Below, one piece after another: positions 43,250 through 45,076 of a stretch of DNA of 64,000 nucleotides. Source of the stretch: Parabacteroides faecis (GTDB taxonomy: Bacteria; Bacteroidota; Bacteroidia; Bacteroidales; Tannerellaceae). The first letter of the stretch is position 1. Each line of letters starts with the position of its first letter. The stretch spans positions 243,333 to 307,332 of the forward strand of contig NZ_BMPB01000009.1 of NCBI RefSeq assembly GCF_014647375.1, given 5' to 3'. The notes under the pieces are model-generated. The model saw nothing but the letters and a program-made list of their open reading frames with translations. It had not been told where the DNA came from and searched no databases. Made by a program: the position numbers and the translations under genes.

Positions 43250-45076
43250 ATGGACAATTATATTGTATCGGCAAGAAAATACCGCCCCTCTACTTTTCGT
43301 AGTGTCGTAGGGCAAAAGTCTCTTACCACTACACTAAAAAATGCAATACAAAGTAACAAGCTCGCTCATGCCTATCTTTTTTGCGGACCGCGTGGTGTCG
43401 GGAAAACTTCATGTGCACGTATCTTTGCTAAGACGATCAACTGCCTGAATCCGACAACCGACGGAGAAGCCTGCAACGAATGTGAATCGTGTCAGGCGTT
43501 TAATGAGCAACGCTCTTATAACATCCACGAACTGGATGCTGCGTCCAATAACTCTGTGGACGATATCCGTTCGCTGATCGATCAGGTGCGTATTCCGCCC
43601 GCTATCGGGAAATATAAGGTTTTTATTATCGATGAGGTACATATGTTAAGTTCGGCGGCCTTCAACGCTTTTTTGAAGACGTTGGAAGAACCGCCTCATC
43701 ATGCCTTGTTTATTCTGGCTACTACCGAAAAACATAAAGTGTTGCCAACCATCTTGTCGCGTTGCCAGATTTATGATTTTTCCCGTATTTCAATAACGGA
43801 TATGGTGGAGCATCTCGAATATGTCTCTTCACAGGAAAATGTAACGGCGGAACCGGAAGCATTGAATGTGATTGCCCAGAAAGCTGACGGAGGTATGCGT
43901 GATGCTTTGTCTATCTTTGACCAGGTGGTCAGTTTTACCAACGGAAATATTACTTATCAGGCTGTTATCGACAACCTGAACGTGCTTGACTATGAATATT
44001 ATTTCCGTCTTACCGATGCTATTCTGGCAGGAAATGTCCGTTCATCTATTCTTATACTGAATGAAATATTAAGCAAAGGTTTCGACGGGCAGAATATTAT
44101 AACCGGTCTGGCGGCTCATTTTCGCGATCTGCTGGTCTGCAAGGATGAAGCGACACTGATATTATTTGAGGTCGGTGCCTCTATCCGCGAACGATATAAG
44201 GAGATGGCAAAACGTTGTCCGGATCAATTGCTTTTTAAAGCGATCGAACTGGCAAACTCCTGCGATCTGAATTATCGTGCCAGCCGCAATAAACGTTTGT
44301 TGCTAGAACTGACACTTATCCAGCTTTGCCAGTTAAGTTCTGCCGGGCAAGTTGTCGATGATAAAAAAAAAGGAGTAATTGAACCGATCGCTTCCGGTGC
44401 TCCCGGACAATCTGTTTCTCAAGGGGCGCAGCCAGTCTCTCAGGGACAGCCGATGCGTCAGCAGGTTCAGCCCGGGCAAATGGCTAATCACATGCCTCAG
44501 CAAACTGCCGGAATGAATGGCGGTAATGGGCAGGTGATAACGACGAATATGCCTTCATCGGCAACCATTATTCCGCAAGGACCTTCGGCTTCTTCTCCTA
44601 AAAAAACGTCACGTCCGCCTCATTTGAGTACTTCCCTGAAAGAAATCGGTGTTGAAAAACCGAAAAACCAGATGACACAACAAGAGAGCCGGACTGTACA
44701 GGAAATGGTAAACCCTTTTTCGCAAGAAGATCTGGTTCATTATTGGGATGCTTATGCTGCTAGCGGGATGATCGATAAGAAGGTGTACCTGAAAAATACC
44801 ATGATCAATTGCAAGCCCGTTTTGCAGGAGAATTATTTCTTTGAAGTGGGTGTTCATAATCCGGGCCAGCAGGATGAGTTGAGCAATGGCTGTGTGGATC
44901 TATTGAACTACCTACGTATTCAGTTGAAGAATACACGTATACAGATGCGTGTACGGATTGTGGAAACCAATGAGAAACATCTGGCTTATACTTCTACTGA
45001 AAAATTTGAACATCTGTTAAGCGTGAATCCGGTTCTAGCCAAGTTGAAGGATGAGTTTAACCTGACGCTGGATTGA
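43250..45076 (+). CDS. dnaX: DNA polymerase III subunit gamma/tau
   Basis: DnaX is the motor subunit of the clamp loader and, as tau, links polymerases to the helicase. Of 608 aa, domains I-II are AAA+: GPRGVGKT at 46-53, a zinc module with Cys65, Cys75, Cys78 and Cys81, and IIDEVHML (Asp128-Glu129). Domain III ends near LLLELTLIQLCQL (about 350-362). A Gln/Pro/Ser-rich linker (385-450) and the C-terminal tau region follow. At codons 372-374 nine consecutive A precede GGAG (44363-44375). Slippage by one base there would give a product of about 375 aa containing only domains I-III. The ATG at 43250 is chosen over an upstream start because of the promoter box at 43219-43226. Confidence 0.96.
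   Translation: MDNYIVSARKYRPSTFRSVVGQKSLTTTLKNAIQSNKLAHAYLFCGPRGVGKTSCARIFAKTINCLNPTTDGEACNECESCQAFNEQRSYNIHELDAASNNSVDDIRSLIDQVRIPPAIGKYKVFIIDEVHMLSSAAFNAFLKTLEEPPHHALFILATTEKHKVLPTILSRCQIYDFSRISITDMVEHLEYVSSQENVTAEPEALNVIAQKADGGMRDALSIFDQVVSFTNGNITYQAVIDNLNVLDYEYYFRLTDAILAGNVRSSILILNEILSKGFDGQNIITGLAAHFRDLLVCKDEATLILFEVGASIRERYKEMAKRCPDQLLFKAIELANSCDLNYRASRNKRLLLELTLIQLCQLSSAGQVVDDKKKGVIEPIASGAPGQSVSQGAQPVSQGQPMRQQVQPGQMANHMPQQTAGMNGGNGQVITTNMPSSATIIPQGPSASSPKKTSRPPHLSTSLKEIGVEKPKNQMTQQESRTVQEMVNPFSQEDLVHYWDAYAASGMIDKKVYLKNTMINCKPVLQENYFFEVGVHNPGQQDELSNGCVDLLNYLRIQLKNTRIQMRVRIVETNEKHLAYTSTEKFEHLLSVNPVLAKLKDEFNLTLD
44363..44375 (+). promoter_or_regulatory. Candidate slippage/frameshift site in dnaX (A9 then GGAG)
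   Basis: Codons 372-374 are AAA AAA AAA followed by GGA GTA ATT. One extra A gives AGG AGT AAT TGA; one fewer gives AAG GAG TAA. Both end the protein within four codons, at the domain III/IV boundary. GGAG could act as an internal ribosome-pausing signal. Confidence 0.5.

Follow-up and report, generated by a model that had tools for sequence, protein, structure and literature searches.

In E. coli, gamma, the short product of dnaX, is 431 aa long. In Thermus thermophilus, a short gamma is made from dnaX mRNAs whose number of A's has been changed (PMC1088944, PMC5009743). Genes in which dnaX is split into two ORFs are also described: in one such cluster of 17 genes, found by GeneTack, 12 have a poly-A stretch, A10 in nine of them, and transcriptional slippage is the authors' suggestion (PMC3711429); the two-ORF form is covered in a review as well (PMC5009743). 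According to the GeneTack work, orthologues that use ribosomal frameshifting keep one direction of shift, while those that use slippage need not (PMC3711429). Whether a short clamp-loader subunit is needed beyond the few bacteria studied is unsettled, the review's account covering E. coli and Caulobacter (PMC5009743).

An A9 run just past domain III of dnaX

The 64-kb stretch of DNA analysed here, the window, carries on its forward strand a dnaX gene for DNA polymerase III gamma/tau (43250..45076), with an ATG at 43250 and a stop codon at 45074-45076. Its 0-frame product is tau, 608 aa, identified through Pfam (DNA_pol3_delta2, DNAX_ATPase_lid and DNA_pol3_gamma3) and through gamma/tau chains of the PDB. 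The genome contains only one match to the whole dnaX core, plus two partial ones of 28-31% identity.

Codons 372-374 read AAA AAA AAA in frame 0 and constitute the proposed slippage site, an A9 run at 44363..44371 (forward strand). It is directly followed by GGAG (44372-44375), the next codons being GGA GTA ATT GAA; the A9-GGAG that an earlier note on this DNA had placed at 44363..44375 is exact in both coordinates and frame. The stretch adjoining the run on its 3' side, GGAGTAATTGAA (44372..44383, forward strand), supplies both out-of-frame stops: TAA at 44376-44378 upon loss of one A, and TGA at 44380-44382 upon gain of one. Computed from the window's gene, the A9 version yields 608 aa (67.7 kDa), the A10 version a protein of 377 aa ending in ...KKKRSN (42.2 kDa), and the A8 version one of 375 aa ending in ...KKKE (42.0 kDa). 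Stops thus lie close by in both non-zero frames, and either change of one A ends the protein early, as had been claimed.

Domain III (PF12169) ends at DnaX residue 364 by Pfam, and the solved gamma/tau chains, which we take to be those of E. coli, align as far as residues 358-360. The cut therefore falls just past domain III, leaving the clamp-loader core complete, which agrees with the earlier placement of the site at the gamma/tau boundary. By the same Pfam and PDB alignments, the part common to both products is the clamp-loader core, domains I-III (codons 1-371, 43250..44362, forward strand). The part specific to tau, a linker and C-terminal region (44372..45076, forward strand), is recognised from relatives with similar C termini, such as ..KLKDEFDLSID.

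Counting such runs gives no excess: the window holds three A9/T9 runs against 5.18 expected from shuffles. Of these, only the dnaX run lies in an ORF of at least about 100 aa. Chance as its origin is rejected on conservation in relatives, described below, and not on count.

We propose that the A9 run is, very probably, a programmed site of transcriptional slippage. RNA polymerase would add or drop A's on the run, giving rise to mixed dnaX mRNAs: those with 9 A's (or 9 plus or minus 3) would encode tau of 608 aa, while those with 8, 10 or 11 would soon meet a stop and encode a clamp-loader subunit resembling gamma, 375-377 aa in length (about 42 kDa). What the sequences show directly is the run, its conservation, the surplus of stops in both shifted frames and relatives that can make tau only through a shift; that slippage takes place in the window's species, at what level, and that the replisome uses the short protein are inferred.

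Conservation of the run in the genus, family and order

In the genus, 39 genomes were searched and 36 gave a match. A run of at least nine A's is present at 35 of these 36 dnaX sites (33 A9, 2 A10), the exception being L111. In the family, 124 genomes were searched, 114 had a match, and the site was read in 113 species; the counts omit L185, at a contig end, L197, which is the second and divergent of two copies in G084, and an incomplete further match in G109. At least nine A's occur at 99 of the 113 sites (52 A9, 44 A10 and 3 A11); the remaining 14 have at most five A's, and none has 6-8.

Flanking linker residues differ among family members while the run stays, so that a retained run within a varying linker, which the earlier note had made a test of its reading, is what the genus and the family both display. 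The run is also unbroken by AAG codons, though AAA makes up only 51% of lysine codons in the dnaX core of the genus (57% in the family). With such AAA shares (0.51 and 0.57) against 99 of 113 family sites, the run is conserved as nucleotides beyond what the protein needs.

These counts bear on a different reading, in which the run is neutral or serves the protein as a lysine patch, and no significant short product is made. Lysines do recur at the run's position, one A9 by itself is statistically unremarkable, the run is missing from many families, and stretches of A7-A10 exist elsewhere in the gene in some species: over the 113 family species, we found 13 A7, 11 A8 and one A10. Lysine codons in the rest of the gene, however, mix AAA and AAG, and none of the five other KKK triplets in family dnaX genes is all-AAA. 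Once the surplus of stops in either shifted frame and the intact but shifted tau of many relatives (both below) are added, a lysine patch becomes highly improbable.

At the level of the order, 295 genomes were searched, 287 of which had a match; 121 sites were taken and one (L246, at a contig end) was dropped, leaving 120. The sample is not random but enriched for short frames: by eye, 25 short-frame rows were seen among the 150 matches listed, two of which (L246 and G331) run off the contig; 24 such rows were fetched, with 23 usable, and the rest of the sample is mostly one per genus. A run of A9-A12 is found at 60 of the 120 sites, in 35 of 69 families; in the other 34, no sampled site has nine or more A's in a row. 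Outside A9-A12, seven sites have A7-A8 and ten have A6 as their longest run, so the lack of intermediate lengths seen in the family does not hold strictly beyond it. The codon phase of the run varies across the order, each of the three being represented.

Since the run is missing at 14 of 113 family and 60 of 120 order sites, the device is dispensable or replaceable. In lineages without it, gamma may be dispensable or made otherwise. Some loci of different sets share the same core DNA (L006/L165, L008/L174, L009/L179, L029/L191, L033/L189, L060/L248 and L082/L289), and counts of the sets were not summed.

Stops in both shifted frames

Of the 81 family genes with the run present and tau in frame, 78 meet a stop within six codons in each of the two shifted frames, against 21.0 expected when synonymous codons are resampled with amino acids held; like all our stop counts, this one comes from related species and not from independent trials. 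The out-of-frame stops are thus kept in relatives, as the slippage reading had anticipated. The order sample gives a similar picture, with both shifted frames stopping early at 33 of 38 sites versus 11.9 expected. At in-frame order sites lacking the run, anchored on their longest A stretch, both frames stop in 6 of 57.

Repeated switching of the tau frame

At 18 of the 113 family sites, the 0-frame ends just past the run, and tau, with its C terminus intact, needs one additional A. On the DNA tree, these shifts to +1 A amount to at least 6 changes, with 6 independent pairs. Their direction is uniform within the family, +1 A in 18 out of 18.

In the order, both directions occur. Of 60 run-bearing sites, 38 have tau in frame, 12 (in 10 families) at +1 A, 8 (in 5 families) at -1 A, and two, L243 and L300, require several shifts; L233, whose tau is only 471 aa long, was counted as in frame. 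At 20 of the 60 sites of this enriched sample, then, frame 0 encodes the short protein, and the long one can be read only in a shifted frame, where its C terminus is intact. Families f16 and f21 each hold all three arrangements. For three order sites without the run, the scoring also put tau at +1 A. Only L302 is a true case; in L213 and L216, the shifted reading is simply longer than a frame that is already full at 598-600 aa.

A sample of 39 sites from the wider phylum, not random and composed of 19 new loci and 20 hand-picked ones, includes 33 with the run: tau is in frame at 15, at +1 A at 17 and at -1 A at one. L330, from another order of the class, has tau at -1 A. On a protein tree of 129 rows, the frame state changes at least 31 times, many branches being weak; strongly supported branches give 11 independent pairs for tau in frame or not and, separately, 4 for -1 A versus the rest. 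Close relatives L148 and L168 have runs that differ by one A within an identical flank, and a difference of one A in the run also separates the near relatives L267 and L279. In L168, L181 and L353, tau depends on a shift with A9 alone: nine A's seem to suffice there, which bears on the window's own A9.

Many of these assemblies are draft or metagenomic, and homopolymer errors could have created some of the shifted cases; L243 is disrupted in several frames, and one more shift is required in L300. That the shifted relatives as a whole are assembly errors or pseudogenes, and so uninformative on slippage, is nevertheless scarcely credible: shifted states recur in clades with their tau C termini kept, the state is often set by the flanking bases and not by run length (A10-G-CTG versus A10-CG-CTG), and the shifted arrangement is present in one-contig genomes (L199, L277, L318 and L186). 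The same sites count against the lysine patch, since without a shift the 18 family and 20 order genes with shifted tau would be dead.

The two loci with several shifts deserve separate mention. L300 has A10 and then an in-frame stop after codon 418 (about codons 371-418), with the tau C terminus in another frame; an A8 lies between its run and that C terminus, and is perhaps a second slip site. In L243, the C-terminal part of dnaX is spread across several frames, and we regard this gene as a pseudogene or an assembly error.

Transcriptional slippage or ribosomal frameshifting

The window's A9 contains an in-frame A_AAA_AAA, on which ribosomes can slip. Gamma could thus be made by programmed -1 ribosomal frameshifting on this heptamer, akin to E. 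coli dnaX. Within the family, such a mechanism fits equally well, all 18 shifted sites requiring the -1 direction; direction being uniform there, the two mechanisms can be told apart only with data from the order and the class. In these, direction is not fixed among orthologues: eight order sites and L330 need the opposite shift. One-direction ribosomal frameshifting does not give both directions at the same run, a pattern regarded as the mark of slippage in the GeneTack work (PMC3711429), so relatives with tau in either shifted frame favour transcriptional slippage as the probable mechanism.

Other observations agree. Family runs have a lower limit of nine A's, with none of 6-8, whereas an E. 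coli-type heptamer needs only six or seven, and the stop excess concerns both shifted frames. We also looked for ribosomal frameshift stimulators at the 35 run-bearing genus sites and rejected them, since neither downstream folding nor Shine-Dalgarno-like words are conserved there. Folding energies at these sites reveal no conserved downstream structure (mean z -0.31, three sites below -1.5); the window's own 68 nt fold to -17.1 kcal/mol. Shine-Dalgarno-like words precede the run at only 8 of the 35 sites, and none was found in the 19 nt examined upstream of the window's run. Ribosomes of Bacteroidia are, moreover, reported to fail to recognise Shine-Dalgarno sequences (PMC9976891), so the upstream stimulator of E. 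coli is not expected to work in them.

On the other side, one Chlorobium dnaX has E. coli-like stimulatory signals, as described in the review (PMC5009743), and L302 carries an E. coli-like heptamer with tau in the -1 frame. The latter, an order-level locus of family f26, reads AGA AAA AAG TAG at about codon 367, that is, A_AAA_AAG with the arrangement reversed; a relative within f26 has A10. Ribosomal shifting may therefore act in places. As the explanation for the window's site we consider it unlikely. Transcriptional slippage, which the earlier note had put forward as the probable source of a short gamma-like product, is supported by the conservation of the run, by the stop excess and by relatives with tau in either shifted frame, a case built on comparison of sequences.

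A hairpin at the same position in Bacteroidaceae- and Prevotellaceae-type genes

In dnaX of the Bacteroidaceae and Prevotellaceae type, a GGGCnnnGCCC hairpin stands at about codon 370-377, where other families have the A-run (L013 and 48 other loci). Each of these 49 loci has its own core; 46 are named loci and 3 belong to the order sample. Counting two G-U versions brings the set to 51. Exact linker matches, searched without a frame filter, are in frame 0 in 49 out of 50 cases. The 80 named loci divide into 19 with the run, 48 with the hairpin, one with A6-8 and 12 with neither.

Hairpin loops are three or four bases long, UUCG and GUAA among them. The encoded residues vary (GRSP, GLCP, GRRP, GLGP, GQGP) and the paired bases are kept. 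The glycine codon is GGG at every exact site, which follows from the search design, compared with 99 of 829 glycine codons in the core of the same genes; at the fourth codon, 50 of 51 sites have CCT or CCC and one has TCT, while CCA and CCG never occur. With regard to a possible frameshift role of the hairpin, both shifted frames stop within 12 codons at 31 of the 49 loci against 18.3 expected, only a mild excess.

The hairpin does not look like a dispersed repeat: searching for its most frequent version, GGGCGTAGCCC, gave 0-1 hits on each strand of four genomes and 2-3 in another, with 0-2 for a reversed-pattern control. No Rfam family reached its gathering score at the dnaX site in three hairpin loci and L001, the one match being a tRNA in L018. 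The position of the hairpin suggests a link to the gamma/tau boundary.

An I/L-K-P-I-F-like motif comes after the hairpin in many Bacteroidaceae-type loci, just as an L/V-I-E/K-P-like motif comes after the run in many family members, for example at 44375-44386 of the window. It is possible that the linker motif after run or hairpin acts at the protein level and also supplies out-of-frame stops.

Implications

A broader reading can be offered, although as a whole it is tentative and somewhat less probable than its negation. Across Bacteroidota, dnaX would be a frame-neutral slippage gene: selection would maintain a run of 9-13 A's, along with stops in whichever two frames do not encode tau, and be indifferent to the frame of tau itself. 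Single-base indels would then have been tolerated time and again, and become fixed, although the gene is essential. The small RNA hairpin GGGCnnnGCCC would have taken the place of the run at the same codon in Bacteroidaceae and Prevotellaceae, serving gamma production by a different route.

Evolution seems to have repeated the test here, with species flipping which product is in frame. Such flips should be survivable only if either arrangement supplies the cell adequately. This makes it directly testable whether gamma is needed and at what rate the RNA polymerase of Bacteroidota slips. In addition, many intact dnaX genes of the phylum may be annotated as truncated.

Comparison with known systems

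Among open-licence papers, we found no report of slippage in Bacteroidales dnaX, of switching in two directions or of the hairpin, with the proviso that the species list of GeneTack may include Bacteroidota.

The window's gene resembles E. coli dnaX: each, as one gene, encodes tau in frame 0, and a shift at a lysine site rich in A's gives, or in the window would give, a product of the gamma type. It differs in that A_AAA_AAG is absent, the site reading AAA AAA AAA GGA, and in having no conserved Shine-Dalgarno-like element or stem-loop. The predicted short product, at 375-377 aa, is also smaller than E. coli gamma.

Genes of the GeneTack cluster resemble the window's shifted relatives in their poly-A stretch and in a tau that lies in the shifted frame. 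All 17 of them are, however, of the -1 direction (PMC3711429), whereas the window's gene is a single ORF, among whose relatives both directions occur and the frame has switched repeatedly.

The likeness to Thermus thermophilus is closer: there too, a single-ORF dnaX contains A9, with stops nearby in both other frames (PMC1088944, PMC5009743). The position differs, seven-eighths along the Thermus gene (PMC1088944) as opposed to codon 372 of 608, just past domain III, in the window; the phyla differ as well, and slippage is demonstrated in Thermus and proposed for the window's gene. About nine or more A's in a row on the sense strand mark the Thermus type, and the window has such a run at 44363-44371. 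Both the class and the two-ORF form were already known, and we place the window's site in the Thermus-type class of dnaX slippage as a probable new member.
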